Part shown: one piece after another, positions 34,139-61,819 of the stretch | How positions within the stretch are numbered: the first letter of the stretch is position 1 | Layout: each line of letters begins with the position of its first letter | NCBI GenBank assembly: GCA_022225965.2 | Contig: JAKJXP020000034.1 | Location: 124,001-188,000 of the forward strand | Source of the DNA: Diatrype stigma | Taxonomy: Eukaryota > Ascomycota > Sordariomycetes > Xylariales > Diatrypaceae | Direction: 5' to 3' | Length of the DNA: 64,000 nt | Notes under the pieces: generated by a model | Databases searched by the model: none | Told to the model about the DNA's origin: nothing | The model's input: the letters and a program-made list of their open reading frames with translations, nothing else | Program-made: the position numbers and the translations under genes

Positions 34139-34206
34139 TATCGCATCACAAAAACGGAACCGTTATTGCTTTAGTGGCAATAACGCTATATATACTGACT
34201 GCGACA
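34139..34206 (-). repeat. 3' LTR of the 403-bp element
   Basis: A 68-bp copy matching 34474-34541 at 66 of 68 positions. It contains the hairpin CGTTATTGC / GCAATAACG with a 7-base loop. Confidence 0.9.
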
Positions 34207-34473
34207 CACCCCCCAGATTTTGGCCCTTCTTTGGCCAGGATCTGCAACTTTCGCAGTCCTTTTGTTGGGTGTTCGTCCCGAGCACTAGCAACTGGCTCTG
34301 GCAACTGGCTCTGGCTCTCGCTTTTTGGCTCTCTTTAGGGATCGAATCCATACCCTTGGGGTGGTCCTTCTTGCAGAGTTTCGTACAGGGAACGTGTTTA
34401 TACGAAAATAACGCATTAACCACTAAACGATGCGAGCATCTCTTGGCAGTCTAACGCAAACCGGGCGCATAAC

Positions 34474-34541
34474 TATCGCATCACAAAAACGGAACCGTTA
34501 TTGCTCTAGTGGCAATAACGCTATATATACTAACTGCGACA
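34474..34541 (-). repeat. 5' LTR of the 403-bp element
   Basis: A 68-bp LTR starting TGTCGCAG on the minus strand. It lies directly against RIP-mutated Copia sequence with the 5-bp flank ATTTT. Confidence 0.9.
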
Positions 34542-35418
34542 AAAATAAAGAAATAATAAATACGTTACTAAAATTTGATAACGAAAAGGGATAACCGAAT
34601 AATTCGGATATGTAATTTGGATTTTCGTTGTCGTCGTTTATAAAGTATATAATTATGAATTATAAAAATGTTTGGACAAAATAAAGAAAGTTTCGTTCGT
34701 TAAGAAATTTAAAAAATTAAGGTTTTGCCATAAAGCGAATTCTTAGGTTATATCTTTGTTTTTTATTTATATTATCGTTTAATAAATTTATCGTAACTTG
34801 TTATTATTTTATCCGTTGCCTTGGTAACGAATAAAAATAAAAATAAAGCGAATAAATTCGTATTTTCGTTTTATTGCTTTTAAATAAAATAATTTCGGTA
34901 AGTTCCTTAATTCCGACGTTATTATTTAAAATAAAAAAGTAATAATAATAATATGATATATATTTAATGGATTTTATAATAAGATTTTGATTTAAATGGG
35001 ATAATTCATTATTATCGTACGAATAGGATTTTTAAAATAAGTACGAATAAAGTACGGATAACGGCGTTTCTAATAAATATAATATATATTCGTAAAATGC
35101 CGTATATTATTTGATTTTTAATTAAGTTGCATTAAGAATTCCTCGTTTATAGCAAAAAACGCAGCAAGTCGGTTTATTAACGTTTATGTAATGTAAATAA
35201 ATTTTAAATAAATAAGTAAGTTTGTAATAAGGAATTCCTTATAAGCTTTATCGGGTTCATAACTTATTAAATATAAACGTAAGTTATGAGGTATATTGTA
35301 TTAGGTTATTTAATATAATAGGAATATGCTTTATAGGCAGATGAGGGCATTCCATATATATAGCCACAGGTGTGGGTCGTCCCTAGCCACCTGGATTTCC
35401 AGCTACCGTATTCCAACA
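34542..35418 (-). mobile_element. 5' part of a RIP-mutated Copia element
   Basis: Very AT-rich sequence whose outer 154 bp (35265-35418) are an LTR matching the one at 61418-61571 in opposite orientation. On the minus strand the order is LTR, then AGTTATGAACCCG (the half-tRNA-Met primer site with one RIP-type change), then about 720 bp of degraded internal sequence. The internal part stops abruptly at the 403-bp element. It has no pol domains because those are in the other fragment at 55404-61571. Confidence 0.8.
35265..35418 (-). repeat. 5' LTR of the split Copia element
   Basis: A 154-bp LTR starting TGTTGGAATACGG on the minus strand, the same start as Ty1/copia LTRs, and ending TTTAATA, a RIP form of TTTAACA. 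Outside flank in element orientation is AGTGA. Confidence 0.85.
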
Positions 35419-36213
35419 TCACTTATCCGACAGAATGTCTCCGCATTTTAAACCCGGCGCAACGACGCAGATGACCGGCGTTGCACTTACGATACTACGG
35501 ACTACAGAGTCACCCTGAAGCCAAACTAGACACCAAACTATGGCTTATCTATCTCCCAACCAGTCCAATACTTGTGCGGGACATGTTCCGGGACCTGCAG
35601 CTGTTAGCCGCCTCATCCACTCAAATGTTAGTCTGCATAAGTTAAGTAAGAGATAACAATGGTTGAGAAGAGTTAGGGGCGAAGGCACAAGATTACGATC
35701 AAATCCGAAATCCAAAGAAATACTAATTAACGATTCGACTTAATTCCCAGCTACATGTATTACATCGCAAACGACCGGCCATTAGTAACGACTTCCGCCT
35801 TGCAAGCTAATATCCACTTCAACTCCAGGCTATCCCGTTTTCAGGTCGTATTTCTGCTGGTGCGATTGTACACTTAAGGCTATTCACTATATCGTTATGC
35901 AACATGTTGAGATGTGCTTTTGTGCGTGGATGGTCACAGTTTAATAGCTATGACACAACTACCCTGGGAAACAGTCAGCACTGTGACAAATTGTAGAGGA
36001 ATTCGTATCAGTTTCATCACCATGACCGTATAATACGAACCTAGCAACATACACCAAACAATGGTCTTTATCGACTTATATTCATCGATCTTGAACGCTA
36101 TTCCAACAGCTGACACTGGCATACTCGAGTCCAATGATCTAGGTTCGGAGGAAGAGGAGATGTTGTTCCAGCTGGTGTGCCGACCAGAAGACGAGTGCGT
36201 TTTAAGGATGTGT
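35419..36213. other. No gene recognised (0.8 kb)
   Basis: A minus-strand frame runs through part of this stretch, but it depends on transposon sequence at 36292 and above for its start and shows no domain. Confidence 0.4.
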
Positions 36214-36291
36214 CTAACGAGCACAATCCGTGAACAGATTGTCAACCTGAATATTACATAGCTCACATAGTCTGTATGACAACATCCCAAG

Positions 36292-36782
36292 CAGGGTGTC
36301 AAGCAACGCAATCCACTGCAACCAGCACCCTGGATTTGGTGGATTGAAGTTGCGCAACTGCAACCAAATTGCAGCGGCGTTGCACTGGTTGCAGTAACCA
36401 AATCGGGTTAAAGTGAGGGCATATACAATGGTCGTAAAGCGGAGTTTTGGCGTTTATCTGGCGTATCCGAAGCCCATTATTAGCAGCCCTGCCTAATGGA
36501 AGGTTCCGACCCATACCTGGCAACCCCCCTCCTGGCAATCCCCCCCCGCCTAGCCTTCACTTTGACCCCTACTAGCCCCTATAATCCTTGATGTGGCGGT
36601 GTATACTAGCCACAATTACCAGCCACTGCAACCTGCCACCAGTTGCGCAACCAGGTGAAGTTATCGTGAATTGCGTTGCAGGTTGCGCAATCTGGAAAAA
36701 TCCCAAATGGATGGATTGCAAAAACTGGTGTCCACCACATGGTGGACATCATGTTGCACAGGTTGCGTTGCTTGACACCCTG
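36292..36782 (-). mobile_element. Intact TIR DNA transposon (MITE-like, 491 bp)
   Basis: The ends are inverted repeats: CAGGGTGTCAAGCAACGCAA at 36292 and its reverse complement ending at 36782. Inside are many GTTGCA/TGCAAC motifs, a typical subterminal-repeat pattern. There is no transposase. Its GC content is normal, in contrast with the RIP-mutated relative at 4366-5007. Extending the termini by six imperfect bases leaves ATGT on both sides, a possible short target duplication, but this is uncertain. Confidence 0.8.
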
Positions 36783-36874
36783 GTTAGGACATCACAGTCG
36801 CGGACTCGAAGCTCAGCTGGTGCAGCAACAGCCACGGCTGATAGAGCTGCGGCGAGGAGGAAAATAAACTGCAT
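36783..36874 (-). pseudogene. Signal-peptide end of a small secreted protein gene cut by the transposon
   Basis: On the minus strand an ATG at 36874 begins MQFIFLLAAALSAVAVAAPA, a textbook fungal signal peptide, followed by ELRVRDCDVL. The reading frame then enters the transposon end at 36782 and stops 11 codons later. Beyond the transposon (36291 downwards) a frame of 25 codons with three cysteines is open to a stop at 36214-36216. It could be the displaced C-terminus of a cysteine-containing, effector-like protein of about 50-60 residues. The join is inference because the exact target duplication is unclear. Confidence 0.5.
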
Positions 36875-38746
36875 GGTGTTTGTTTCTTGGTAGTAACGTT
36901 TTGTTTCGTCGGGGTATAGGGCTGTGCAACTGGTGGTTCAAGCTCTGGTCGGCTGTAGAAACTGCTAACTATACTCAGAAGTATTACCCTCGTCGTGTGG
37001 AATAACCGTGACTTATATAGACACAAGAGTTTCACAGACCCCTCTAAGTCCATTGTGACCATATTCTATGTGCTAGATACAGCACCCTGGAACAATACCT
37101 GGGCTCCGAGTCCTCGATCTATGTATCTAAGTCCCATATTCGTGCTGTTATTGGGAGTTCGAGACTTCGCCATTTTGGAAGCAAGGTTGATAGGGGATAG
37201 GGGCTGCTGCGAGGCTTATTTTCAGGGTGCCTTAGGAGCGGAGCAATCGTACACCTTTGATATCGTGGAGACGCCTTCGCTTTTACGTAAATTTAATACT
37301 AGTTGAAGTGCATGATTATATTTGGAAGCTTTTGGCAAAAAACACCGTCTGATTGACATAGCTCTAACTCTGGTAGGCAGTAGGGAAGCGAGCCGCATGG
37401 TGGTAAAACGGATATAGTGGCATGTCTAAGATAGCTGGCGGTAACCGTACGTGACCAATTGCTTGGGACACTTTATTCCTGCGCCCACATGGTTGATCCG
37501 GGGTGAAAGCCACTTAATGTCGATCACCGTATCAGATAATCAAGCTTTCACCTAGCCCCTATATCGCAACATTTCGACCCATAATAATACGGTAGTAATC
37601 TTGTGGATAAGATAAGGGGCTAGGGGGCCACGGGTTAGACTATAGGGGCAAGTTTTTATCATCAGTATTTGTATTTAAGTAGCTGGCTCTCTGTCGTTGT
37701 AGCAGTCAATTTCTTTCTTTCTTTCCCTAAATTAATAACATAGTACGTTGATTCTCAGCAAACAGCAGAATGCGCCGTTCTCCTGCCAACGCCCACATAC
37801 ATAAAGTGGCCTACAGAGAAAGGGCTTCACGATTGTCCGATAACCGTGGGCAATGGCATTTGTAGGTGCCGGGCCAACAGGGTTAGAGAGTCTCACAACG
37901 TGAACTAAGGTAAGTAAATTAGGAGACAATTGTTGGGTTCTATTTTGACATATGCGGCTACGCGCTATCCTGTAGGTATATAGGATAGCCTCATAACTGC
38001 AGTCGTAGATGACATTGATGCCAAAACAGCGCGTGCATCAAACCGCATCAAACCGCATCAAAACGTTTTAAGTGTTGCTTGACTCGGTAGGTGTAGCGTC
38101 AAACGACCATAAAGACTTCACCATGGCAATCAGTTCTCCGGCTCCATGCTACAAACCACATACGTAAGGTTTATATAAATACACACATGTAGTACACCCA
38201 TGTGCTCATGACTAGATACCGTCAGCAGTTAACTACCTTTTCCTGATATACCGTGATGCACTTGACTAAGTCTATATACTAATAATCGTAAAGTTGAACG
38301 TGTTCAGCCTGGCGATAGGTCTCACCAGATTCACTCCTTACGTTGTCCGGCAAGGTAGCCAACTGCGTTGATAGGTCTGCTTCTTCATCAGCAAGACATC
38401 TATTTGCCAGGGAACCGATTCATTTCCGGTGAATACACATATACAGTACGGCTGAGCGTCCCCCACTAGGGAAATCTGTACGGTTGACTAGTTCGGCTGG
38501 TTGCTCAGCACTATTTATCCATCGCACCAACCACCCTATCCCTACTTCCAATCTTTATCTTTTCCACTATCTTTATTCCCTTGCCAATTCACTCCCTCGC
38601 CTTCGTTATCTGCCGACCTTCCCGATTTTCTCAACACTTCCTCCTCGACCTCTTCGCCCAAACCATCCCGGCTACGATACTTTTCTTCGAGATTCTCTTG
38701 TTTCCTCTATCAATCGATTGGCATCAGTATTGTTCCGGCTGCCGAA
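36875..38746. other. No gene recognised (1.9 kb)
   Basis: No coding sequence is supported. A short CATCAAACCG repeat occurs near 38036-38060. The last 300 bp are pyrimidine-rich (CTTTATTCCC, TTCCTCCTCG), as in many fungal promoters and leaders, and precede the HMG-box gene. Confidence 0.5.
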
Positions 38747-39739
38747 ATGGAAGTAAATCACGGTCTTAACAATGACCCCGAGATCAATGAGGTCTTGGGC
38801 ACTTGGAGATCACTGGAGGTCCAGCTGAATGAATTCAATCAAATAACCTCGATCCCAGTCAATCGATTCGCCAAGTGGAATACCTTTACCAGAGACGCGG
38901 GAAAGGTTCTCATGGGGTAAGACTAATCCTTTTATCCAAGTTCTTCCGCGATGTTCTGTACTTGTGTCTGCTGATAATCAGACACCACATCCTGTTTTTA
39001 TCTCAATGAATACGATCCAAAACATCATGAACTTCGTTGCCCTGCATCACTAGCCGCACCCATCACACCGCCACGTTAGGAAACTGGCCCATATAGATGA
39101 AGTTCTCATTTCACTAACTTCTCATTCTACATCAGGAATGCCATCCAAAAAGATGACGTGGTGTATGCTAGTGAAACTGGCATTCAAGATCGGATCTACC
39201 TGGGCTCTCGGCAGGAATTAGAGTTGCTTGGGTTCCGAGTTTTCGCTGTAGCCTCCCAGGAATTGCTGGTAATGACCACCCAGCACGCACCAGTTGCTCA
39301 TGCCAACATCCCGGCCCCTCCGGCAATGCCGAACAATTCATCCCGTGCTAGCGAGAATGTTTATGGTAATAATATGGGCCACTATAATGGCGTTACCATC
39401 ACTGCTACTCGGGGTTAGGTACCCCCCAGTAGCGGTGCGTCCGGTCGCGCCATGACTACTCATGAGACTACTCATGAGGAGGGATCCCACGATGGAATCG
39501 AGACCCATGCAGTCCCGGCCATCCCCGTTGATGATGCAAATAGGACCAGCAAGACTACAAAAACAGCATCCAAGTCGAATGCTGGGAAAAGTACCACGAA
39601 AACTGCCAAGAGTAAAACAAAGGAACCAGAATGCGGGATTCGTCGTCCAAAGAATTCATATCTGATTTATCGAGTCGACGTTGAGCCGCGTCTTTGCAGA
39701 GAATTTCCCAACCTATCTTTTGTGCAGAAATGTGAGGAA

Positions 39740-39779
<40 letters not shown>

Positions 39780-40546
39780 NNNNNNNNNNAAACCCCCCCC
39801 CCCCCCCCCCCCCCCTTCTACTATCGGGATGGCTTGGATTCAATTCGCTAGGTCTGCCTGCCAATTCACAACTAAATTATTCGCCTGCATGTACCTGATC
39901 TCATGCCATAATATCTTGTCTTCATTTCAATCTACAATGTCGATTCAGTGTTAACTCTTCACTTATAGCCAAGGTCGCAGGTCGTAGATGGAGAGCTTTA
40001 CCTCAGGCGCAGAAGGACGAGTACAAGATGAGAGCTGCTGAGGAGAAACGCGTTTTCGACATCCTTCACCCAAACTACAAATACAGTCCTCGACAATCCT
40101 CACAAATCCGGGAGCGAGGAGGCAGCAAGAAAGCGGCTTCGGTCAAGAAATCACAACCCGTCACCACTGGAAAGCAATTGACGAGAGTGGACAGTGGAAA
40201 GGATACTGTGGAGACTGGGGGTCCCACCAATATCTCTACGAAGTCAAGCGGTGATCACGATCGTCATGAGGATCATCCAGCTGGACATCTCCATGATGGA
40301 CAGCTACCTGAGAGACAGCTCGCCCTTCCAGGAGACATCCTTGTCGGACAGGTCTACGACGCTCAGCTCCCTGGTGGTCAGCTTCATGATGGGGAGATAT
40401 ATGACGGGCAGGTCTATGAAGAGCAAGTTGCAAACATTGATTTCTCTGCCGGTATCACAAACTTTCAAGAGCTCTTCGAACAAGAACACCAGAAAGGAAA
40501 TCAGCCAGCCAACCAGTACAGCCTGTCTTCCTGGGATTTGTTATAG
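38747..40546 (+). CDS. MATA-type HMG-box protein, MAT1-2-1-like, with gap and frameshift
   Basis: Exons are 38747-38916, 39136 to about 39731, and 39969-40546. The N-terminal part has the layout of MAT1-2-1 proteins (WRSLEVQLNEFNQITSIPV; later LELLGFRVFAVASQELLVM). The HMG box begins RRPKNSYLIYR, continues as REFPNLSFVQK, and after the intron as KVAGRRWRAL, EYKMRAAEEKR and HPNYKYSPRQSSQIRER. The intron splits a Ser codon in phase 1, exactly the conserved intron position of MAT1-2-1 HMG boxes. Two problems exist: the frame meets TAG at 39416-39418 beside a GGGG run, and the downstream frame resumes with a one-base shift; the intron also holds an assembly gap. A paralogous MATA-HMG regulator is the alternative, since none of the usual MAT neighbours (APN2, SLA2) is in the window. 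As MAT1-2-1 it would be a DNA-binding regulator of mating identity. Confidence 0.65.
39741..39815. other. Assembly gap flanked by poly-G and poly-C
   Basis: 39 G (39741-39779), ten N (39780-39789), AAA, then 23 C (39793-39815), all inside the HMG-box intron. G on the left and C on the right is what two-colour sequencers produce when reads run off into dark cycles from both sides, so the homopolymers are probably artefacts. Confidence 0.9.
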
Positions 40547-41645
40547 TGGGACGATGAGAAGGAACTTCGATGTGTCCTCGGAAACAGGCAACATGTTTGT
40601 TAAGGTATCTTGGTGGTGTTCAACATTTTAGTCATCCTTGATGTCCGATGGAGAGGGAGAGGCCTCTGGGAACGGAAGATATATCTGATAATGGTCATTC
40701 CAGTCGATCTCTTGAAAAGAGCCTCCTTTCACGCTTCTCCCTTTTAAAGCTGTACCCAGTTCCAAAAGTACACCTAAAGTACGGAGGTCGCAGCCATAGC
40801 TGCTGATAACACGCACATATCTGGGTTGTGCGAATAACAAATGGCATACAAAGGGTATTATATTAAGGCTTGGCGCTTTCGGTGAGTTCAAGCCATTACA
40901 GAGTAGGGGCTTACACGTAGTCAACGGCAACATGCAAATCATCGGCTCCGATTCAAGCCATTCCCAAGCGATACTGAGAAATCTAGCTAGACTTCCGTAA
41001 ATGATGATTAATACATGTTCATGCTCTCCGAATTCATTACGTACTTGGAAGACAATGCCGCTCGAAGCCGGATCCGCTCGGGTTTAACTCGTCACTTACC
41101 CCTGACAATCCTGGCTCTCCAGGCTTGGCACCCCGCGACTTACCCGTCTTCGTCGCTTCTCCTCCCACGGCCCTCCCGAAAATGACCCGATGATGTCCAG
41201 ACCCCGGAAAGTACCCAGACTACCTCATAGTCGCCCCAACGACCGATCGGCTAGTAGCTCCGACCGGCACTGCACACTTTGCCGAAGGTGGGGAAGGGAG
41301 GGGGAGGGAGTTCGTCCGGTTCTGTCCTTGCTTGTAACTATGTACCGTTCATGACTTCCGAACAGCCCTGCGTCCAGTCCACCTAGAAACCAAGACATAC
41401 GGCATCACAAGTTACTGGGCCAAACTTAGTCCTTGCCTTCAGTTCAAGTCGTGAAATCGGCTTGTCGTCTGGTGGGTCTCCGCAGCTTCCCCCCTTTACG
41501 ACCCACAAATAAACAGGGGTGGCTCGCGGATAAGTATAACTATAGTATATTGTCCCTCCTGTCCACCCAGGGCGCTGGGTTACTTGACTGGTGTTAAAAA
41601 AACACCGGGTCTCTTACAAGAGAGCACCCTGAGAGACCCCCGAAG
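40547..41645. other. Intergenic, promoter region of the GH3 gene (1.1 kb)
   Basis: No gene is supported. The part nearest the GH3 start is GC-rich and includes CCCCTTTACG- and GGGGTGG-type motifs that could bind carbon-catabolite regulators, but no site can be assigned with confidence. Confidence 0.4.
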
Positions 41646-44154
41646 ATGCTGAGCGTGATAAATGTTCTTCGAGCGCTTGTAGGGCTTGCAGTAGTCTGTG
41701 CTGCTCAGACGACTGGCAAGCCCCCAGCGAACGAATCCGACTCTCAGTTTTACGGGCAAAGTCCTCCGGTCTATCCATGCCGTACGCCATATCCCCGCTC
41801 TGTAATATACCATCAGGACTAACGATGGGCTAGCTGTCGCGAATGGAAGTAGCAGTGAACCTTGGACGCATGCGTTTGAACGTGCGAAAGACCTCGTGTC
41901 CCAGATGACCGTCGAGGAAGTCGTCAACATGACGAATGGCTTTCCCGGCGCGTGCATCGGGAACACTGGGTCCGTCCCGCGTCTCGGTATTCCGCCGCTC
42001 TGCCTAGCCGACGGTCCCAGCGGCGTCCGTGGCCAGGAGTTCGCCTCGGCGTTTCCCGCCGGCATTCACATAGCTGCTACGTTCGACCGCACCATGTGGT
42101 ATGAGTACGGCCGCGCACTTGGGTCCGAGTTCCGCGGTCTCGGTGTGAACGTCGCTCTCGGCCCTGTTGCCGGGCCTCTTGGCCGCATCGCCGTCGGCAG
42201 TCGCAACTGGGAGGGCCTGAGCAACGATCCATACCTTGCCGATGCCGGAATGGCGGGCATTGTGAGGGGGATCCAGGACTCGGGCGCCATGGCGTCCATC
42301 AAGCACTGGCTGCTGAATGAGCAGGACTTCCGCCGCAACCCGAGCGAGATGGGCGAATCGCTGAGCTCTAATCTGGACGATCGCACGCTGCACGAACTCT
42401 ACGCGTTCCCCTTCATGGGCGCGATCCGAGACGGCGCTAGTAGCGTCATGTGCTCGTATAATCGCGTGAACAACTCATATGCCTGCCAGAACTCCAAGCT
42501 GCTGAATGGAGTGCTCAAGACCGATCTTGGCTTCGAGGGCTTCGTCGTGAGCGATTGGGGCGCCGGCCACACGGGAATCGCGTCTGCGAATGCCGGACTG
42601 GACTTGATTATGCCCGACGAAGGATTTTGGGGACCCAGGCTAGTAGAGGCGGTCAACAACGGGAGTGTAGCGCTGGAACGGGTCAGAGACATGGCCAGTC
42701 GGATTTTGGCACCCTGGTTCCGCCTGGGTCAGGATAAAGACTATCCTCGAGTGGCCATCCAGAAGAGCAGTCTAGATACGAGCGAGCCTGTCGATGTGCA
42801 AAATGGACATGGAAAATTAATACGAAAAATGGGCGCTGCTGGACACGTGTTGGTGAAAAACAACGGCGCCTTACCGTTCCGCAAGCCAAAATTCCTTTCC
42901 ATCTTTGGCTACGACGCGGATGTTCCCAGTGACCCCTGGCACAGCTATAACGTGTTCGGCGCCTATAAACCTGTCGGCCTCGTGCCGGAGGACGACGTCT
43001 ATGCGTCCCCCAAGCTTCAGAACCTTAACGGAACTCTCATCACAGCCGGGGGTTCGGGCAGCACTACGCCGCCATACGTGATCAGCCCCTTCCAGGCCTT
43101 GCAGACAAGGATCGCGGATGATGGAGGCGTGATCCGATGGGACTTTTATAGCGTCAACCCAACCCCTTGGTACCGAAGCGATGCTTGCCTAGTCTTCATC
43201 AACAGTTACCCTGACGAGGGTTTCGATCGTATAGGCTTACGGGATGAACTCAGCGATCAGCTTGTGGATAACGTTGCCTCTAATTGCAGCAATACTATCG
43301 TCGTTATACACTCCGCCGGTATGTTTTGGGTTTCTCGTCTTCGAGCGTATTTCGCGCAACGGTGTTCACAGGACCTTCTTATACCATTTTACGTGCGTCG
43401 TTAACCAGAGTAAACAGGCATTCGGCTGGTCGACCCTTGGGTTAATCATCCCAACGTTACAGCTATCATCTTCGCTGGTTTACCCGGACAGGAAACCGGA
43501 CGAGCCCTAGTCGACATTCTATACGGTGACGTCAACCCAAGCGGCAGGCTACCCTACACTGTGGCGCTCAAGGAGTCTGACTATGGACACCTCCTCAACT
43601 ACACGCGGGACACTAGCTGGTTTCCGCAAGACAATTTCACCGAGGGTCTCTTCATCGACTACCGGGCCTTCGACCGCGACGAGATCGAGCCACGCTATGC
43701 GTTCGGCTTCGGCCTGTCCTACACGACCTTCGAGTACGCCAAGCTCAGCCTGCACCCTTTCAGCACGGTGTCACCCGGCGGACTTCCCGACCCCGAGATC
43801 CGCATCATCCAGGGCGGCCATCCGCAGATTTGGGACACGGTTTACACGGCCACGTTCGAGATTCGGAACACAGGCGACGTCTACGGCGCCGAGGTGGCGC
43901 AGCTGTACCTCGGCATCCCCGTGGAGGGCACGCCTGCGCGCCAGTTGCGGGGTTTCGAGAAGGTGCCACTGCAGCCGGGAGAGGGAAAGACAGTTACTAT
44001 CGCTTTGACGCGACGGGACTTGAGCTTCTGGGACGTTGAAGCTCAGCAGTGGAGGATCCCCGAAGGTGTTTTTAACGTTTACGTCGGCGCTAGCAGTCGG
44101 GACCTGAGGTTGAATGGGACTTTCAGGATAGGGGATGGGATCTCGGATCTTTGA
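41646..44154 (+). CDS. Secreted GH3 beta-glucosidase
   Basis: Three exons (41646-41781, 41834-43318, 43418-44154) give 785 residues. The protein starts MLSVINVLRALVGLAVVCAA, a signal peptide. Intron 1 has CTAAC nine bases before its acceptor and its removal joins YPC to PVANGSSSEPW. The N-terminal TIM barrel shows RAKDLVSQMTVEEVVNMTNG, LCLADGPSGVRG, FPAGIHIAATFDR, NVALGPVAGPLGR, GSRNWEGLSNDPYLA, KHWLLNEQDFRR and VMCSYNRVNNSYACQN. The nucleophile Asp lies in GFVVSDWGA (about residue 286). The alpha/beta sandwich domain (HVLVKNNGALPF ... IIFAGLPGQETGRALVDI) and the fibronectin-like C-terminal domain (RYAFGFGLSYTTFEY, LRGFEKVPLQPGE, YVGASSRDL) complete the usual fungal layout. It should hydrolyse cello-oligosaccharides or similar beta-glucosides outside the cell. 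The acid/base residue cannot be assigned with confidence by eye. Confidence 0.93.
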
Positions 44155-44643
44155 CGAAATATTATAATACATTTTGCGTTTTCGAATAGTACGTCCGTCT
44201 ATACGTGATCGCGTGCGCTCTCGTTAGCTCATAACGGGCGAGATGACGCGCAGAAATAAGTATATGAGGGTATCAAACCTTGACGCCCATTGCGAATATG
44301 CCAGCTCGACTTGTTGGCTTTATCGCTCAAGGGTAGCATTATGATATGGTCGCTGAGTATGTGGATGCGAGTCTCGAATACCATTACACATCCAATGGCG
44401 CAAAGAATGAAACAAACACAGGGTATTCTAATTTGAGAGCTATTACTAGTTCGAAGCCCTCAATCGTCTTCCATCATCGTCAAGTTGAGGTATTTACCTA
44501 TGCCATCCCAACCACCTTTCACCGTACCAGCCATTTTGAAATCCATAAACTCCCGCCCGCAATGCGATCTTTTGTTCGTGAAGTCCCGTTATGAGACTAG
44601 ATGTATTGTGTGCACATAGAGCATAGTGAACTGACCGAGGAGG
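44155..44643. other. Convergent intergenic region
   Basis: It lies between the 3' ends of the GH3 gene (plus) and the TMA17-like gene (minus). Nothing is recognised. Confidence 0.5.
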
Positions 44644-45300: not shown

Positions 45301-45688
45301 TGTTCTTTCTTGTCTACCTTCCTTTGGGCGCCCTGTTGTTCTAGTGTATGTTTTGTTTGAAATAGGCTAACTGAGTGTCAGAGAATACGGAATAAAAGAA
45401 TTAATGCTTAAGTAAGTATGTATGTAAATTTTGAGTTTCCTTGGGGATCACTGGCTTCTGGCTGGCTGGTTGGCGCAATGTAACAGCTGCCCTTGCCTTC
45501 CAAGGTTGCCTGTGTGTGTTTGTGACTGCCTGTCAGCCTGTGAAGAATGACGTGGGGTCAAGTTTCATGTGGGGCCCTCGAACCAGGGTGCATTAGCTGA
45601 AGGACTTGAAGCTTGGGCCACCCAATGCGGGAGAAGGCAAGGGGAGTTGGGGGAGGGGCCGTAGAGGGGTTGTATGTATGTTATTCAC
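45301..45688. promoter_or_regulatory. Upstream region of the TMA17-like gene
   Basis: It is the promoter side of the minus-strand gene. Polypurine and TGTG-rich sequence occurs; no specific site is assigned. Confidence 0.35.
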
Positions 45689-45910
45689 TACCGCCTATTT
45701 CGACCTGTGAGTTATGGGTCTATACGGGCCTTTTTCTGGGGAGTAAATCACCTAAGCTGTATACAGTTTAGGTAATTTGTCAAATTATATACAAACTCTA
45801 CAGGGGAAGTGTGAAATGAGTGTTCCGCTATATCCAAGAATAGTTAAATGATCTACTCCCCAGAAAGAGGCCCGTGTAGCCCCATAACTCACAGGTCGAA
45901 ATAGGCGGTA
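45689..45910. mobile_element. Tc1/mariner-type MITE (about 218 bp)
   Basis: Terminal inverted repeats of about 60 bp: CCGCCTATTTCGACCTGTGA at the left and its reverse complement at the right, with a few mismatches. The core 45691-45908 is bounded on each side by TA, the Tc1/mariner target duplication. The interior of about 100 bp is AT-rich and non-coding. It lies between the TMA17-like and M20 peptidase genes. Confidence 0.85.
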
Positions 45911-46404
45911 CGTAGCAGTGCTGTATTTAGGCGGCTCTTGAGGTAAAGCTTCTCGAGCGCCCCCCGATGTTCGGCCAAAGTTCCTTGTTCACCTTCCCCA
46001 TCCTTGGATGGCGAACCGCGGCAGAGCGGGAACAGGGAACAGATAAGGAAGAACCACATCCAGTCGTCCCTGGAGTGGTATAACTCCATCCTCCAACTAT
46101 CTACAGGTGTCAGGAGTCAGGACATCCAGTGTTTTCAGGCATGCCGGTACTTACATGATAGGACCGGGGTTCTCTTGCATCGGCAGCTAACATGGTGTCC
46201 CTATCTTTCGAAGCGACACTGATTGGACTGGAAATGGACTGGGGCGATCCGCAGCATCTCCGCAGCACGCCATCAGAGACTTGGATTCGGTTCATATACC
46301 TGGTGGCAATTGAAATATAACACGGTTCTCTCATTGTTCTCTGACTTGAGCGACATAACCTCTACAGTGCGCTTTTCGTGATCGTCTCTCCCATAACATT
46401 TGGC

Positions 46405-48390
46405 ATGTGGTCGCCGTTGATATTGGTTACCGGCTCATTGTTGGCCCCTGTCACCAGCGCTGCTGTCACAGGCCTGGTGGTAGAAAGCCGGGGACAGCAA
46501 ATACTTGGGGATGCCACCGAAAACAACAACTTCGAATGCAATCTGCCACCGGCATTAAGCCCGTCAAGCGATGGGCTTCCCAGCGCTCAAGACATCTTCT
46601 CAGGAGAAGATGCGCTGTTGAAACAGGTTGAGAGACACAGCACAATCGTCAAGATACCGTCCATCTCCTACGACGACAATGGAGACCCTGGTGAAGACCC
46701 CAGGTGGGACGTGTTCTACGAGTTGCACAAAGCCTTTGCATACTTGTATCCCCATGTGTAAGTAGTTGGATCTGATTGGATCCACGGGGTGTTGTTACCC
46801 GAACACGAGGACCGCGCCAGCTAATGAGGGGCTATAACAGCCATCACCGAATGACTCGCGAATGGGTGAACAGTATCGGGTTGGTGTACACAATTCAGGG
46901 CTCCGATCCCTCTCTAAAGCCGCTCTTGCTAGCAGCTCACCAAGACGTGGTGCCCGTCGCGGATGCGGCCACCTGGAAGTATCCGCCATTCTCGGCACAC
47001 TTTGACGGGCGATGGCTATGGGGACGAGGCTCTTCTGATGACAAGAACAGCTTGACCGCCTTGTTCTCAGCTCTGGAAACGTTGTTGGGGAATTCGGAGT
47101 GGGTGCCGAAACGGACCATTGTCCTTGCGCTCGGGTTCGATGAGGAGTCGTCTGGCCGTCGCGGAGCTGGTACGATCGGCCCATTCCTCGAAGAACGATA
47201 CGGGAAATATGGAATAGCGCTCCTGCTCGACGAAGGGGGTATGGGCCTGGAGCTACTCGGCAACGATACTCTGTGTAAGTTTTGCATTAAAGGGCTGATA
47301 TTGGACATTGAATGTAGTCTAATAACCTGGCTTAGATGCGCTTCCTGCTGTTACCGAAAAGGGTCACATCGACATATGGTTAGAGCTTCACGTGAACGGC
47401 GGCCATTCATCGATCCCATTTCCTCACACCGGGATTGGTATCGTGTCCGATATCGTGAACCAGCTCGAGTCCAATCCCTGGGAGCCCAAGCTGGTCCAGG
47501 GATCGCCAATCCACAACCATCTGGTCTGCCAGGCCAAATACTCCCCTGACGCTTCGCCAAAGATCACCGATCTTATTAACAGCGGTGATCTCAAGACCCT
47601 CACCCAGGAGCTGGTATCCATCGACCGTCCGACGCAGTACCGCATCCAGACGTCGCAATCCGCAGACTATTTCCAGGGTGGCGTCAAGATTAACGCGATG
47701 CCTGAGTACATCAAGCTGGGTGTGAACCATCGGGTGGCACCGCACAACTCAATCCAAGAGGCCAAGGCCAACTTCGTCAAGCAGATCCAGCCGTTTGTCA
47801 AGAAGTTCAGCTTGACCGTCAAGGCGTTCGAGGGTGAAGACCACAACCCAGAGGGCCTCGGGCTGTTGCTAGATGAAGGGGATGTTGTGCCGATGTACGA
47901 TGTCGACTATAACGGCACGCTCATCCTCAGCTCGAGCCAGGTGACGCTAAACGCGCCGGTCTCGCCGACCTCCGGTCCTGTCTGGGACCTATTTTCTGGG
48001 ACCATCCAGCATAGCTTCGCCTTCGACGGCGGGAGGGTCGTTCCAGTCGGCGAGCTGATGACCGGTAACACGGATACGCGTCATTACCTCAGTAAGTATC
48101 GCCCCGGTCGGACCCCATTCCATCTTGCCTACAAACATATCTAGTTTCTAGTTTTGCTCTATATGAGAATGAGTAAAAAGCTGATAGCCGGTGGCAAAGA
48201 TCTCGCGACGCATATCTATCGCTGGACCCCCACGCGCCAGGGCGGCAACGCGAACGCGCACACTATCGATGAACGCATCGACATGTACGCGCATATGGAA
48301 GCCCTGAGGTTCTACTACAACTTGATCAGGAACTTTGACGCTTCCGATGTCGCTCAGGTGGAGCGGCAGAGTGACATCGGTGACCTGTAG
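46405..48390 (+). CDS. M20 carboxypeptidase (vacuolar Cps1-like)
   Basis: Four exons (46405-46757, 46841-47274, 47336-48091, 48200-48390) give 577 residues. The N-terminus MWSPLILVTGSLLAPVTSA is a signal sequence or anchor. The di-zinc M20 metal ligands are visible: LLAAHQDVVPV, WLWGRGSSDDKNSLTA, ALGFDEESSGRRGAG and LLDEGG. The dimerisation domain starts GHIDIWLELHVNGGHSSIPF. The C-terminal part contains INAMPEYIKLGVNHRVAPHN and, across the last intron, TDTRHYL joining NLATHIYRW, close to the TRFYLNLT motif of yeast carboxypeptidase S. HTIDERIDMYAHME follows. The enzyme should release C-terminal residues from small peptides in the vacuole or outside the cell. The intron with a TGGCAAAG acceptor was chosen because it restores that motif. 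Confidence 0.92.
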
Positions 48391-50411
48391 TTCATCACGT
48401 AGCCGAGACTGATGGGCAACTTGCTAGGGAGGTTCGGGATGATATCCTGGTGTTGGTTATGAGGTTACATCGGCGAGACCGTGTAAGGTCATGCAACAGC
48501 CGCGTACAATTATGGCACACTTACTGACCACCTCCAAATAATCGTGGTGCATAGGTAATACGGCACAATTGGGATGTTTCCAACAATTCAGACTTATTCA
48601 GGTATCGAATACGACTTATGCAACCCAGTGAAGTTCGAGTTGAGAGAAGGGCTCCAGAGAACACAAGCAGAACAGAAAGGGTACTGCATATTCCTAGCAG
48701 CTTGGCAAGGAATGGGGTCATAAGCAGCTTGAAGTCGAACATAGCTTGGCCCCCAAATATAAATATAAGTGGTGCTCAAACCCGCTTTGGATCAGACCCT
48801 ATTTGAATCGATTTCGTTGCAATGCTGACATTGACAATGCCGGCGGTCGGTTTCAGTCATGCATTCTGCCTACCTAGGCAGGACCTTCCTAGGTGGTCGT
48901 CGGTCACCCCATACCTATGACCCCTATTTGGCTGTTGAGCCGCTAGTCAGCATCCAGCAATTGGCCAAAATTCCCGGTTATTATGTTGGTTCTCTATGCC
49001 AAGCGACGACAATATATGGCTGAGATTCAGTAGTTCCAACGTAATGCCACATAAGAGGATTTGTATATAATACTAACATTATTAAAAGAATAAAAAGAAA
49101 TTAACAGATAAAATAAAAAACAGGGATAGTGAATATATAATATGAGAAGGCTCGAGACTGGAACCCCCTTTTATGCCACTAGAAAGTGGTTGTGGCGTAT
49201 AAGACTTCCGATGGTGAGCAGCCCATTGGGGACAATCTCACCGAAAACATGGCTCCTGACGCTTCACGGTGGTTTTGACGGAGTCTTCTCCTGGAGTCCA
49301 TAAGAGTTCGTCGGCCACGGCGTAGTCAATGACTCAATCGATTCTCTTAGGATCCGTGATAACTGAATATATGCTTCGACAACTCCGGTTTCATGTAGTA
49401 GATACCTTGTTTCAGTTGTCGCGTTACGCCCATTTCTATGGATGGGTTTCCCACCGAACGTGAGACTGACCAGTCTTCTTGATCATGTACAGACAAGAGC
49501 GCATTAGGTATTTTTATACATGATCAAGATGATACGGCTTGGCGTCGTCGGGTAGTCTACCCTTATTTTTGGCCCCCATCTCCACCTAGTCCCATTATAA
49601 GCATCCTAGGCCATAACTTGATATTCCCCGAATCCTTCCAATTCCCCCCTTCTTCACTACGAGGTCAGCATTCACCCCAGTCTGCTGGTCTATACATTGT
49701 GCCACTTGTATTGTGGTGTGAGGTCGAGTATCACAATCATTTGTCCCGGAGCCAAGGCTCCTTACAACAACAGACATCTAGAATACGATATCAAAATTAT
49801 AGAGCTTTACCTGACTCACATTATATTGCAAGATATCCTGCAAGGTACTTGGTCGGCGTCTTCGAGTGTTCTGTAAAAGCATGTCTAGCCAATCCAAAGC
49901 CCAAAACTATTCGTGTACGGCAGCGCACAAGTACACGCGATAGATATATGGAGCGGCATCTTCCGTATCCATCACAATGCATTGGCTGACACCCCAGCAT
50001 GAGAGAGGGTGGGATTGGCGGATCGTAAGTATGAATCCCAGCCAACCCCTTTGAATCAAGTCTCATTAATTATCGAAAATAAATCAAGCCCGTACAGATG
50101 CAGTAGGTAAGCGAAGTTGCGTCCGGCGCGAGACTCAGCCCAACCAGAGGGGCCACGTCTATGGGTATTCTCCACTTCGCCTGTCTGTCCCTGGTCTTCA
50201 AGGGCTCTGGCGGCTAGGGCAAGATTGGGGTCGTTGGGCTGTGCTGACAGTAGAGGAGCTGCTCGTCAAATAGTTATGTATGCATGGAACCCGTTAGCAG
50301 CCCATGGCCAGGATTTCCACCTTTTGTCTCTGAACACGACATCTGTATGTCTCACTCGTCAACATCAACGCTGATCACCAGCGCGCTCATCAGCGAACTT
50401 TCCAAGGCAAG
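48391..50411. other. Gene-poor stretch (2.0 kb)
   Basis: No gene is recognised. An AT-rich patch lies around 49060-49140. A plus-strand frame at 49618-49989 is open for 123 codons but lacks domains and has unlikely composition. Confidence 0.5.
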
Positions 50412-51530
50412 ATGGGAGGAAGTACGAATCTCGGGCCGCTGACTACTAACCGGCCGTTGGCCGAGAGCTGCGAGGCGGAGTCCAACACCGTCTACAAAAT
50501 CCATACGACGCCGGAAGGCTATTATTGGCTACAGGGTGGCCCTTTAGAGACGTCTTGTTTTCCAAGCGGCTACGCCGCTGCCACCGAGCAGTACTACTCC
50601 CCGGCAAGCTGCCCCTCTGGATATACGCCAGCCTGCCAGAGCACGAACGCAATAGGTACCGTGACCGAGACGATCCAAACTTGCTGTGCAACGTAAGAAT
50701 TCCCTGGTTGATTCCCCTCTGAAGATTTATCAGCAGCCGCCGGTGCTGCCGGAAGTTGTCTATTGTCGAAACACTCTTATTCTAAATTTGAACCAACAGC
50801 CAGTACAGCTATGTATGCCAAGATACCATCAGTTACGAGTGGGAAAAGACACTCGGGTGCATATATCCCCAGTCAGCAACTATACAGACGACGTGGACCG
50901 TCGTAACCATCTCAGACGGAACCACTGCCACACGTGTGTCGGCGGGTCTCGAAGGGGGGGTGAACGCGTACAGCATTCAAGTGCGCTTCCAGGATAGTGA
51001 CTTCGCCACTACCCCATCGGTAACAATCGAGGTATGCAGCATTCTGATAGATATAACTAACGCATTTTGTTGTTTGATGATGTGGGACGATTCGAACTAA
51101 CATCAAATCATGGCAGGCCTCTACAAGCGCCTCTACTAGCATATCTGGATCATCACCGCAGAGCACCGGCGACAGTGACAGTGACAACAACAACAGCCAG
51201 GGCGTGGTCATAAGCACCGGAGCTACGGTCGGGATTGCCATCGGCGCTGTTGCGGGACTAGCGTTCATAATCGGAGCTATAACCCTCTTCGCACGGAGAC
51301 AACGACGGAACAAGAAGCCACTACAGAATACTCCTGACCATCCGCAAGAATTAGCGGTGGGAGATGTAAAACATATGGATAATTCCGAGTACCATCCCCT
51401 CCCCCCGGAGCTCTATTCGCAACCCTCGGAGCTTTATTCGCCACCACCTGCTGCTGAGATAGATGGCAGCCCTGCTATGTCGTGGAGACCAGATGATAGA
51501 CAACGAGAAGGGGTCGACCCCAGAACTTAA
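50412..51530 (+). CDS. Single-pass surface protein with Cys-rich ectodomain
   Basis: Three exons (50412-50692, 50800-51031, 51117-51530) give 308 residues. The ectodomain begins MGGSTNLGPLTTNRPLAESC and has paired cysteine motifs (SCFPSGYAAA, SCPSGYTPACQ, TIQTCCAT, YVCQ, LGCIYPQ). This matches a common fungal family of uncharacterised cell-surface proteins that begin LGPLTT and carry the CPSGY...C...TCC pattern. A Ser/Thr/Asp/Asn-rich stalk follows, then one transmembrane helix (ATVGIAIGAVAGLAFIIGAI) and a basic stop-transfer RRQRRNKK. The cytoplasmic tail contains two near-identical PPELYSQPSELYSPPP motifs and is Pro-rich. No signal peptide precedes the ectodomain, so an unseen upstream exon or a signal-anchor topology is possible. 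Function is unknown; a wall-sensing or adhesion role is speculation. Confidence 0.75.
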
Positions 51531-52929
51531 CAGGACGGGGATAGTACGTCGGCCAATATATGGGATGAATAATGCTAGCGGTTACCAATAACTTTGAGAA
51601 GTCCATGACGGCGAGGACAATACTGCATTAGCCAGTGGAGCGATATTTGATAGAAAGGTTTGGATTTGAAGATACCTACCCGCTATAGCCACATCGTGTT
51701 AACAGAAGGTTCCACAATAAACTAATCTCATGTTAATTTTTACTGCCCTTGGCAATGGAGAGTGTCGGAGGGCGTCTGTGTTGCAATGGATGCAAGCTTG
51801 TCGGATTATTGATGTCATGGCATGACAGGTACACCACCTGGCATTGTAAAGAAAATAGAGTAATTTATGGCCACTACAAGCTATGAAGGGCCACCCTTTA
51901 AGCACAAATACGACGATGTTGTCCACGTTCATAAGGCTGACCGAAATCACGAATAGGGTATGACCTGCTGTTCAGACCAATGAGCCCTGGAGAGGCGCTT
52001 CACCATGTAAGGCGGTTTCCCCTATTCATGTGCCAAGAATATAAGAGCATGCAGTTGAGATTGCCCGCCACCAACGTCATAGTACAGCATGATACATAGG
52101 AACATGTAGGTGACTCAGCCTTCAATCTAGGAAGGTCAACCTAGGCCGATTTTGTGCTCCTTCAAATCAGGAACTCCATCTGAAGTAGGAGTCTCATAAA
52201 GCGATAGAGGGGGGGAACCGAGCCTCCTGAGCTCAACAGGCCAAGGAACTAGCATCCGATTCGATACTGGCTCCCTATGTGTAATCAAGTGTCCCTACTC
52301 TCCAGAGCCCCTTGGCAGACCCAGAAGATGTTGGTAGGGGTAGTGGATTATATAAGATGTGAATGGAGGCGTACGAGCACGTTTAAGTCCCGGCGACAAG
52401 CAGCTAACCGAGGAGAGTTGTGGCTCTTCAAGTCCATAGGGCTGAAATTTGAAAGTTTAAGTTGAGATTAGGTGCTTCATTGCAGTGCCGCGGCCTGATC
52501 ACAAGGGCCTTTGGTCTAGTCTCAAAGGCTCTTCAGACAGTGGCTTGGTGGCGTTGAGGTCTCAGCCCCTTTCCCCAAAGGCTCCAGCCACGCAAAATAC
52601 TACCTGGTATAGTAAATGCTATCCCCAAAGAGATCGTGGGGGTCATCCTGTATGTGGTAAACCTATAAGTTAACCTAAATTCAACGTAAGGGTGCTTTGT
52701 GATACGTTGGACGCACGAAAATCCCACAATCTAGGCATCGGTTCAATACACACAAGTGCAACACAAAACGGACCCCTTTAATTATCAGGTTACAATCTCA
52801 CTCTGTCAGAGTCACTGTAGGTATGTCGCAATGGGGCCCATGAATGTCTAGGACTGAGGCATACGTCTGGTTTCGAACACAATAAGATAAATTCGGCGTC
52901 GCAACCTCACTATTTTCACTTACCGTTTG
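51531..52929. other. No gene recognised (1.4 kb)
   Basis: Normal-composition sequence with only short frames, ending in GTTTG directly against the 5' LTR of the 2.5-kb element. Confidence 0.5.
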
Positions 52930-53126
52930 TGTCGCGACCAGAATGGGTATATTTGGAGCTGCTCTAGTGCCTTGGCAGGGGCCCCCCCTGGGGGGGTCCA
53001 TTTGGGCCTATATAGAGGTCCGATCTCCCCCCATACCTTCCGACGCTCCCTTCTTTCCTTTCTTCCTTAGAGCTTTAGCAGAGTGTAGCAAATACGTTAA
53101 TAAAAGGGCTATTCAGAAACGCGACA
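52930..53126 (+). repeat. 5' LTR of the 2.47-kb element
   Basis: 197 bp, TGTCGCG...CGCGACA. It contains a GC-rich internal palindrome around CAGGGGCCCCCCCTG. Promoter-like TATATAG lies downstream of it. Confidence 0.95.
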
Positions 53127-53140
53127 GTTATGAGCCCGGG
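53127..53140 (+). promoter_or_regulatory. Primer-binding site for half tRNA-iMet
   Basis: GTTATGAGCCCGGG lies immediately after the 5' LTR. The first 11 bases complement the initiator tRNA-Met anticodon stem-loop, not the tRNA 3' end, as in Drosophila copia. Confidence 0.75.
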
Positions 53141-54234
53141 TTCGCTACGGACTCGGTGCTTCCTTGAGCCAATTTCCGCTGCGCGTTAGCCCTTTTTTTT
53201 CCCGCTCGCACTCCGCGCGTGAAAGGATTCTTTTCCCGCTCGAGCTTCCAACAACGCTTGCGCGGTTCCTTCCGCTGAGCTTGCGGGAACTTTTCCGCTA
53301 CGCTTTGCTTTTCTTCTAGAGCTGGCGGGCTCTAGTATTTCTAAGGGTTGCAGAAGGACGTGTTCCCTTTTGACCCTATACGGAACAAGTCACTACAATC
53401 CTCTGGGAAATCGATTACCCTAGAAATGTGTAGCTGCTCGTTTTATGAGCTCGTACGCCGCCTTTGTATGAGCGACCCTTATTCGGCTACTAGGAACACG
53501 TGGATTGATTCCTTCGTAATCCCAACAGAAACTGGTCTGGGCGAAGGAAGTCTGTTTGGGAGAAGACGACTGGTTCCGAATAAGGAAGACGAGCGCGGTG
53601 CTCGTAAGAATCATTGTTCCCAGTTCAGAGGAATAATGCGTTATACCTTTCCGCCTTCGATTTCGGGGGTGGGCGAGCTTCTTTTTGCCCTCCAGCCAGC
53701 TCGACGAGATCTCGCGCGGGCTTTGCAGACGTCGAGTTGGGGGGTAGGCTAGACCCTGAGTCCTACGTTCGGCTCGGGTCGGTTTTTCGGGCTTCCTTCC
53801 TTCCATTTTTGGATTGGAGGGGCCCAGCTTTCGCGCTGGCGTTTTTCCTCCTTCGGATAAAGGAGCGGCGATCCCTTCCGGCAGGTCCTTGCAGATCGCC
53901 GAGACCGGTGGGGGCGCCAGGGAAGCGCCAGGGGTTTCTGCTATACTTCCCCTTATATTGTGGAGCGGCGAAGCTGTATGCAGACGATCCTTTTCCTGAT
54001 TAGGGCGGCCTCCTTTGTATAGGCCCTTGACGGTGGGGTAGAGGTAGCCATAGCCACCTAGGGACTGGAGTTATGTGCCGCCTAGAGTAGTAAGTGCTGA
54101 GCGTGGCACTGCCGATGCCGAAGAGGGGCGCTGGACTCGGTCGCCCTGATCTTCTTTATACTAACAGCCTGCTCCTACCCTAAGGGATCCCTCGGCTAAG
54201 GGCCCTCGGGATCGGGGGTGGGTACGGTTAGGAA

Positions 54235-54441
54235 GCTCGGCTGGTGCCTGCCCACGTTCGGGGGTGCCAGCCCGGGCAACTCAAAGCTCGGCTGGTGCCT
54301 GCCCACGTTCGGGGGTGCCAGCCCGGGCAACTCAAAGCTCGGCTGGTGCCCGCCCGCGTTCGGGGGTGCCAGCCCGGGCATTGCTTTGGAGCTCGGCTGG
54401 CGCCCGCCCGCGTTCGGGGGTGCCAGCCCGGGCCGAAGTAT
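54235..54441 (+). repeat. 51-bp minisatellite inside the 2.47-kb element
   Basis: Four tandem units of the form GCTCGGCTGGTGCCTGCCCA...GCCCGGGCAACTCAAA, starting at 54235, 54286, 54337 and 54391 (last spacing 54 bp). A fifth diverged unit lies near 54515-54555. The unit is a multiple of three, so all frames look open; this is not coding. Confidence 0.9.
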
Positions 54442-55193
54442 GGGCCGGCTCCTTCCCTCCTTTGCTTCTTCCCTTTCCAGGGGAGTGACGTCTGGGGCCG
54501 GCCCGGACCAGGAAAAGCTCGGCCGGTGCCTGCCTACGCTCGGGGGTGCCGGTTAGGTCCAGCAAAGGAGCTCGGCTAGTGCCACGGGGTGCTCGGTCCG
54601 GACCGCTCCGGTCTAGGTTTATTGGGTGCTTTTCCCATATTGGAAGGGGCACGTTGTGAGCTGGTGTTGTATACGGGCCAGTATGGGACGCTGTATTGCC
54701 GCTCGGGGCACAACACTAGGGGAGTGCCAGGACCTTTTCCTTTTCGATCAGGGTGGTTTCTTTTGTGAGAGCCCAAAAGTGGATGGTTATTACTCCGGCT
54801 AGTTGGAGCCGTTGCGGGTGCGTTGTATCACCTGTAGGTTGATCGTCGTTTAAGTGAAGCGCGAGAGTTCCCTTACTGGAAGAGGAGTACGACAACCACC
54901 GTTACAAAAGCGGTTCGGAATGCCACCTATCGGTACGAAGGAGTGCCGTTAGTATAGCGTCGTCGGAAGCCGCTCGCAGAGAGCGCGCGGGAAGGGTACT
55001 ATAGGTGCCCAGGGTGACTCTAGGGGGCTGCTCTACTTATCCGTCCTGATCTTTCCATGTAACGTATAGTCTCCTTGCCGGTCACGATAGGTAATCTCTA
55101 TATACCACTTCCGGGGATCACGCCATTTCGTGATCTCCCTATGTATGTAGCCTTGCTCGCTTCTTTTTCTTCTTGTTAGGTTGGAAACCTCCT

Positions 55194-55206
55194 AAGAAGG
55201 GGGGTG
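55194..55206 (+). promoter_or_regulatory. Polypurine tract of the 2.47-kb element
   Basis: AAGAAGGGGGGTG directly before the 3' LTR. The same GGGGGGTG precedes the 3' LTR of the 403-bp element. Confidence 0.8.
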
Positions 55207-55403
55207 TGTCGCGACCAGAATGGGTATATTTGGAGCTGCTCTAGTGCCTTGGCAGGGGCCCCCCCTGGGGGGGTCCATTTGGGCCTATATAGAGGTCCGA
55301 TCTCCCCCCATACCTTCCGACGCTCCCTTCTTTCCTTTCTTCCTTAGAGCTTTAGCAGAGTGTAGCAAATACGTCAATAAAAGGGCTATTCAGAAACGCG
55401 ACA
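55207..55403 (+). repeat. 3' LTR of the 2.47-kb element
   Basis: 197 bp, identical to the 5' LTR except for one base, which points to recent insertion. Confidence 0.95.
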
Positions 55404-61571: not shown

Positions 61572-61819
61572 AATAAATTGGGTCACTAATAATTCAGGGG
61601 CTTATTAAGCAATAATTACCTGAAATTGCGTATCGGACATTTCTGTACGTTCATTGGATGATTCGAAAAAAGCTCACTGGTTAGCGATAAGAATGCTCTC
61701 CGCCTAGGCATATAATTCTCTCAGAATCCCATATTTCCAATTCCGTTTGTATTGCCTTTTTAGCAGCATATCGTGAAATGGCCAGTCATAAGCCGTAAAC
61801 AATAATAAACCAGCCCAAC

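Follow-up and report, generated by a model that had tools for sequence, protein, structure and literature searches.

The window analysed here comprises 64,000 nt of the Diatrype stigma assembly GCA_022225965.2 (contig JAKJXP020000034.1, positions 124,001-188,000, forward strand). Two LTR elements, E1 and E2, bound a segment of 18.4 kb within it. E1 (34139..34541, minus strand, 403 bp) is a TRIM-like non-autonomous LTR element, recognised from its ends, its LTR pair and a second genomic copy. Its LTRs are 68 bp each (5' LTR 34474-34541; 3' LTR 34139-34206; minus strand) and show 2 differences in 68 bp. The primer-binding site GTTATGCGCCCGG (34461..34473, minus strand) is complementary to the tRNA-Met anticodon arm at 12 of 13 letters. 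Typical of TRIMs, E1 is shorter than 1 kb and non-coding, with short LTRs, a primer site and a polypurine tract. One other full-length E1 copy was found (C87:77067-77469), which is 97% identical with 11 differing sites. Its ends are identical to those of E1, indicating that the unusual ...GCGATA end is genuine, and it is flanked by a perfect 5-bp duplication of its own (ATCAT), the TRIM feature that E1 itself does not display. Rfam returned no matches for the window or for E1, and ARAGORN returned none in the window.

E2 (52930..55403, plus strand, 2474 bp) is an LTR element without any ORF of at least 150 aa, recognised from its ends and LTR pair. The LTRs (52930-53126 and 55207-55403, plus strand) are 197 bp long with 1 difference, and the nearest copy within the genome, among at least 58 matches, is 81% identical. 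The primer-binding site GTTATGAGCCCGG (53127..53139, plus strand) is complementary to the tRNA-Met anticodon arm at 13 of 13 letters; tRNA-Met genes from the same genome were used for this comparison. The original prediction that each element keeps its own matched LTR pair agrees with these counts. The few LTR differences (2/68 and 1/197) suggest that both insertions are recent, and they are too few to date the two insertions apart.

E1 and E2 belong to different families without extended homology, and neither is chimeric. Their longest exact match is 14 bp, located at the 3' LTR edge, and the LTRs are nevertheless unexchanged. The two elements share functional signals. Both start with TGTCGC, both carry GTTATG[A/C]GCCCGG directly 3' of the 5' LTR, where the tRNA-Met match is 12/13 in E1 and 13/13 in E2, and both have the polypurine tract GGGGGGTG before the 3' LTR. 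No enzyme gene is present in the sequence of either element.

Neither E1 nor E2 has a 5-bp duplication of its own; the four flanks match reciprocally between them, and the plus-strand layout is CAAAC, E1, AAAAT ... GTTTG, E2, ATTTT. At site A, one duplication copy (CAAAC, 34134..34138, plus strand) adjoins the E1 3' end and the other (CAAAC on the minus strand, GTTTG on the plus strand, 52925..52929) adjoins the E2 5' end. At site B, one copy (ATTTT on the minus strand, AAAAT on the plus strand, 34542..34546) adjoins the E1 5' end and the other (ATTTT, 55404..55408, plus strand) adjoins the E2 3' end. Each target site thus holds a 5' (U3) end together with a 3' (U5) end, the same combination that a normal intasome pairs. 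None of the four element/flank junctions contains Ns. The element ends, the four flanks and their pairing between elements had all been predicted, and the flank sequences confirm them. Degenerate own duplications, as opposed to swapped ones, were rejected, since a transversion separates ATTTT from GTTTG.

Site B lies within an old Copia element, H, which is split in two. The 5' part (34542..35418, minus strand; 5' LTR 35265-35418) adjoins E1, and the rest (55404..61571, plus strand; 3' LTR 61418-61571) adjoins E2. The two H LTRs are oppositely oriented, 154 bp each, and differ at 13 positions, all transitions; H is RIP-mutated. The second piece contains an RVT_2 match (PF07727, 149.9 bits, window 58919-59635, 8 stops), so that a reverse transcriptase lies between the LTRs as in Ty1/Copia elements. 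The primer site matching the tRNA-Met arm is common to H, E1 and E2. In all nine aligned paralogues the H halves are contiguous, and the two pieces overlap by exactly 5 bp at site B, where the paralogues read ATTTT (n=5), ATCTT, ATTCT, ATCCT and ACCCT (n=1 each). Four further H matches (C1, C45, C84 and C50:248515) were left out of the alignment and judged by coordinates: in C1 the pieces likewise overlap by 5 bp, in C45 they are contiguous, and C84 and C50:248515 stop short of site B. Because the halves are contiguous with the 5-bp overlap in 9/9 paralogues, the alignment establishes the ancestral join at site B, where H was once continuous. The paralogues also speak against degenerate own duplications, since the ATTTT on both sides represents one site. 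The original prediction had described a split Copia with halves in opposite orientation, which the LTR orientations and the RVT_2 match bear out, and a restored order at site B, with which the paralogues agree. It had also proposed an open frame of about 40 and 90 codons across the join; the counts were 38 open codons ahead of the site and 91 beyond it, in one of three phases with the pieces counted separately.

The segment between the two elements (34542..52929) is 18388 bp as assembled and contains a scaffold gap of 10 Ns (39780-39789), which the original prediction did not mention; a long G tract lies on one side of the gap, and AAA plus a run of C on the other. The reading of an inversion rather than a reciprocal translocation rests on the scaffold join across these Ns, which suggests that sites A and B lie on one chromosome. 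In the genome search, the right side of site A matched only itself. The left side gave 40 matches besides itself, all within a repeat of ~425 bp around 31728-32157, ~2 kb away; contigs C31, C136 and C192 match this repeat at their first bases.

A genome survey of both families was performed. At least 58 E2 matches were merged into E2 and 35 other elements, and together with at least 19 E1 matches gave 55 elements in total. An element was scored as having its own duplication when its flanks were exact or differed by transitions only, and all 55 were compared for flank pairing. Every one of the 12 other two-LTR copies keeps its own 5-bp duplication (6 exact, 5 with one transition and 1 with two, the last a copy inferred from two LTRs ~25 kb apart on C61), so that 5 bp is the length duplicated when these families integrate normally. 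Single cross-flank identities occurred in 4 of 2970 comparisons over the 55 elements, and among their 1485 pairs only E1 and E2 form a reciprocal pair. The pairing of the E1 and E2 flanks is more than chance. The lack of a duplication is not in itself peculiar to E1 and E2, since 14 of the 53 other elements lack a clear one (5/35 in the E2 family, 9/18 in the E1 family and 0/12 among two-LTR copies). These are mostly short solo copies, the ends are unclear in 6 of the 14, and no crosswise pairing was detected among them when all 55 elements were tested.

We favour, as somewhat more probable than all other readings combined, that two cDNAs of the different LTR families integrated crosswise at the two sites and flipped the intervening DNA in one event. 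One kind of primer would have served for reverse transcription of the non-autonomous E1 and E2, and a single integrase of the Copia type would have acted on both. The E1 3' (U5) end and the E2 5' (U3) end, held in one complex, would have been inserted at site A across a stagger of 5 bp, and a second complex containing the E1 5' end and the E2 3' end would have been joined likewise to site B inside H. These two reactions would flip the intervening stretch, divide each 5-bp duplication between E1 and E2, and cut H in two. All four ends are intact, the stagger is 5 bp at both sites, and each site holds a U3 and a U5 end. Two observations strengthen this model: the termini, primer site and polypurine tract common to E1 and E2, and the U3 and U5 end at each target site. 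Linked integration also predicts the nearness of E1 and E2, whereas copy number predicts only 0.018 E1-E2 pairs within 18.4 kb. Most likely, the rearrangement is real and was made by an integrase in one event; simultaneity, co-packaging and mixed-end complexes are what we infer. Against the model, this is a single case, and the final sequence could equally have been made by sequential steps through the terminal TGTCGC. The mixed-end synapsis proposed by the original prediction is therefore retained as the preferred explanation, with the shared signals and the U3/U5 pairing added to it and its exclusion of a crossover removed: the facing ends share the inverted TGTCGC, a match that the original prediction had overlooked, and an exchange there gives the same sequence.

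In that sequential scenario, which we consider unlikely but the most serious competitor, E1 inserted normally at A and E2 at B, in opposite orientation, and a later double break or exchange within the inverted TGTCGC flipped the segment, either by microhomology repair or because integrase acted again on the LTR ends in the chromosome. The two elements are oppositely oriented as it requires, the 6-bp inverted match of the facing 5' ends lies exactly where one is needed, each step is of a known kind, and all observed flanks, the swapped duplications and the unmixed LTR pairs would result. However, both breakpoints must then hit the terminal 6 bp, despite 237 same-orientation E1/E2 matches of at least 6 bp, up to 14 bp. 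Within ~1 kb around the inner ends there are 243 such matches. There is also no extended E1/E2 homology to support ordinary recombination, and two unrelated insertions within 18.4 kb are uncommon by copy number.

It appears improbable that assembly or scaffolding went wrong, or that another kind of real rearrangement took place. The assembler may have flipped a contig between two repeats, which would give the same crosswise pattern, or a wrong join at the Ns may hide a reciprocal translocation; the gap lies inside the segment, and contigs C31, C136 and C192 end inside a repeat. The junctions, however, are all free of Ns, the 6 bp common to the facing E1 and E2 ends are too short for read misjoining, and the 12 other two-LTR copies are unscrambled. 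With an 81% nearest copy for E2, and 11 differences plus its own duplication in the full-length E1 relative, a swap between the two is impossible; an assembly in which the two full-length E1 copies had exchanged phases was rejected because the C87 copy has a perfect duplication of its own. One point speaks against a mere orientation error, though not against a translocation: the H halves and the duplications pair crosswise whatever the gap join.

The capture of two cDNAs by integrase-free end joining at two staggered chromosome breaks seems very improbable. Ty1 cDNA capture at breaks is known and provides a precedent, but four intact ends and exact 5-bp duplications of the families' normal length are marks of an integrase, and no trimmed-end insertion with crosswise 5-bp flanks was seen in the survey of 55 elements. 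Least credible of all is ectopic recombination between same-family copies at the two sites, with one copy replaced afterwards: exchanged duplications are a known mark of it (PMC2775673) and are present here, but E1 and E2 are not homologous copies (at most 14 bp of exact identity between different families), neither is chimeric, and precise replacement at the element ends would need homology absent here. In the available text of PMC2775673 and PMC2603318, ectopic recombination leaves chimeric copies where duplications are exchanged, and by this published criterion the unmixed E1 and E2 argue against its ordinary form, which was rejected on the absent chimerism and the 14-bp longest match.

Mixed-end integration of two cDNAs resembles several known systems in part. 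No description of an LTR retrotransposon inversion made from two cDNAs by two mixed complexes was found in the open-access literature with the terms searched. According to the accessible parts of PMC2775673, Galileo inversions in Drosophila buzzatii likewise show opposite-orientation elements at both breakpoints, exchanged duplications and inferred single ancestral copies. The Galileo copies, however, are homologous, chimeric and cut-and-paste, whereas E1 and E2 are unmixed LTR elements of different families; the Galileo ancestral sites were sequenced, whereas here only the site B join is available, via paralogues. In hybrid element insertion, or reversed-ends (alternative) transposition, of P, Ac/Ds and impala, as outlined in the sections available of PMC2775673 and PMC8225341, the ends of two copies also cooperate, and one reaction rearranges the chromosome and leaves the elements unmixed. 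Ends of E1 and E2 similarly meet at each target site with a duplication of normal length. That process uses a cut-and-paste transposase and chromosomal ends of one family, whereas E1 and E2, each having a primer site and a polypurine tract, are LTR elements. The present proposal invokes a retrotransposon integrase acting on cDNA ends of two families, and apart from the 5 bp nothing would be deleted or duplicated.

In aberrant integration of HIV and avian retroviruses, faulty integrase chemistry also produces host inversions, deletions and duplications beside LTR ends; in the cases seen in the available portion of PMC5041404, integrase joins one end and host repair the other, with truncations and long duplications or deletions, in contrast to the four exact ends, 5-bp staggers and two elements here. 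Primate L1/Alu recombination-mediated inversions likewise have retroelements at their borders that have lost their matching duplications, but in the text at hand of PMC2603318 they involve non-LTR elements, whose homologous copies recombined into chimeras. Complete LTR elements with mismatched TSDs also occur among maize centromeric retrotransposons; these are termed chimeric and ascribed to break repair, and the part of PMC4806543 consulted contains no reciprocal pair around an inverted segment.

Taken together, the unmixed LTR elements and their reciprocal duplications bear on how such inversions are interpreted. Inversions with exchanged duplications are usually ascribed to ectopic recombination between homologous copies. 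A non-homologous, unmixed LTR pair with reciprocal duplications points to another route, in which an integrase uses the ends of two cDNAs. If true, hybrid element insertion would have its equivalent among retrotransposons, recognisable where unmixed elements are flanked by swapped 5-bp duplications, and retrotransposition would itself rearrange chromosomes directly, in addition to the rearrangements that repeats cause later. The signature of swapped duplications, exact ends and unmixed LTR pairs could then be searched for in any genome.

The apparently inverted 18.4-kb segment (34542–52929) is bounded by two LTR elements. E1, on the minus strand at 34139–34541, is 403 bp long and has 68-bp LTRs with 2 differing sites, and E2, on the plus strand at 52930–55403, has 197-bp LTRs with 1 differing site. 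The plus-strand flanks are CAAAC and AAAAT for E1, and GTTTG and ATTTT for E2. Read in its own direction, E1 follows ATTTT and precedes GTTTG, while E2 follows GTTTG and precedes ATTTT. The flanks are exactly reciprocal between the two elements, giving target sites A (CAAAC/GTTTG) and B (ATTTT/AAAAT), as stated in the original prediction. One other full-length copy of E1 was found in the genome, on contig C87 (97% identity; 11 differences, all transitions). It has the same ...GCGATA end and its own duplication, ATCAT, indicating that the E1 end is not mis-delimited. The E1 interior (34207–34473) contains stretches that resemble tRNA promoter boxes by eye; an Rfam search of this interval returned no match. 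Five GC-rich 51-bp repeat units were identified within E2 (54233–54565).

Site B splits an older, RIP-mutated Copia element, H, with one part starting at 34542 (minus strand) and the other at 55404 (plus strand). Its 154-bp LTRs (35265–35418, minus; 61418–61571, plus) are inverted relative to each other and show 13 differences, all transitions. The RVT_2 domain is located at 58919–59635. In 9/9 of the closest H paralogues in this genome, the two parts are contiguous with an overlap of exactly five bases at site B, showing that a single ATTTT is ancestral and that a 5-bp duplication was made at this site. Judged from coordinates alone, a tenth copy (contig C1) has the same 5-bp overlap, another copy is contiguous (C45), and two further copies stop short of site B. 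The two parts are complementary halves, as had been proposed. In agreement with the open frame predicted through their join (about 40 and 90 codons), 38 codons before site B and 91 after it are open in one phase, counted on each part separately. The outer flanks of H, AGTGA (35419–35423) and AATAA (61572–61576), would agree if two G had become A, as RIP would leave a duplication, and weakly suggest one.

The matches listed, at least 58 to E2 and at least 19 to E1, collapse to 55 elements, with E1 and E2 among them. The other two-LTR copies number 12: the C87 copy of E1 and 11 E2-family copies. One of these 11 is a putative copy whose two LTRs lie about 25 kb from each other on contig C61. All 12 carry a duplication of their own; 6 of these are exact, 5 differ by a single transition and 1 differs by two. 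Among the matches listed, exact or transition-only duplications flank 30/35 E2-family members and 9/18 E1-family members, E2 and E1 themselves excluded. The 14 copies failing this rule are solo or partial, with unclear ends in 6. E1/E2 is the only reciprocal pair among the 1485 tested, and contributes two of the four single cross identities in 2970. The outer flanks of the two C61 LTRs (C61:208352–233945) differ by two transitions alone; the pair may be a single element carrying a large nested insertion. A solo E1-family LTR (C6:806815–806880) has the duplication CAAAC, the letters of site A, probably by coincidence. Elsewhere in the window, a repeat of about 425 bp (31728–32157) looks like a solo LTR; it has 40 other matches in the genome, with copies up to 97% identical, some at contig starts. 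An inverted repeat at 45689–45910 has 67-nt arms, 91% complementary, with 88 nt between. One protein search places the host as a probable xylarialean-like ascomycete.

All element ends are exact, and the 5-bp stagger of normal integration is present at both sites, indicating that the joints were at some point the work of integrase. Both elements are non-chimeric, and at each site a 5' (U3) end of one element is paired with a 3' (U5) end of the other. Mixed-end integration would explain all these features in one event, and we consider it, on balance, the probable origin of the inversion. One complex would join the E1 3' end and the E2 5' end at site A, and another the E1 5' end and the E2 3' end at site B. 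With the cDNAs linked, the second target would stay nearby, fitting the 18.4-kb spacing; copy number predicts 0.018 E1–E2 pairs within this distance.

Exchanged duplications attributed to recombination in Drosophila (PMC2775673) and primates (PMC2603318) involve chimeric elements in the cases described there, unlike E1 and E2. The exclusion of a crossover in the original prediction was nevertheless too strong. In the uninverted order, the facing ends of separately inserted E1 and E2 are both 5' ends sharing an inverted TGTCGC, and a crossover at any point within this 6-bp match inverts the segment, leaving unmixed LTR pairs, swapped duplications and a final sequence identical to that from mixed-end integration. 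Such a sequence of events seems rather unlikely, as it needs two unrelated insertions close together and both breaks within 6 bp, although E1–E2 matches of at least 6 bp number 237, some longer, with 243 around the inner ends. The four junctions contain no Ns and offered the assembler nothing to confuse, since the closest E2 relative among the matches listed has 81% identity and the one full-length E1 relative is normal. The A–B linkage over 18 kb of one chromosome, however, depends on the join across the window's single run of Ns (10, at 39780–39789, in a scaffold gap at 39740–39825 with a long G tract, the Ns, AAA and a C tract), which lies inside the segment; were that join wrong, the same reciprocal pattern would point to a translocation. 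Misassembly or such a translocation is quite improbable.

E1 and E2 are, from their sequences, different families. No exact match between them in the same direction exceeds 14 bp; the longest lies at the polypurine tract and 3' LTR start. Both start with TGTCGC, end with GCGACA or GCGATA, and carry GTTATG[A/C]GCCCGG downstream of the LTR and GGGGGGTG upstream of the 3' LTR. Compared with the anticodon arm of this genome's tRNA-Met genes, the primer site agrees at 13/13 letters in E2, 12/13 in E1 and 11/13 in H, where both mismatches are G to A. Mixed-end integration would bring two families together in one event, and a single enzyme set may serve both E1 and E2.
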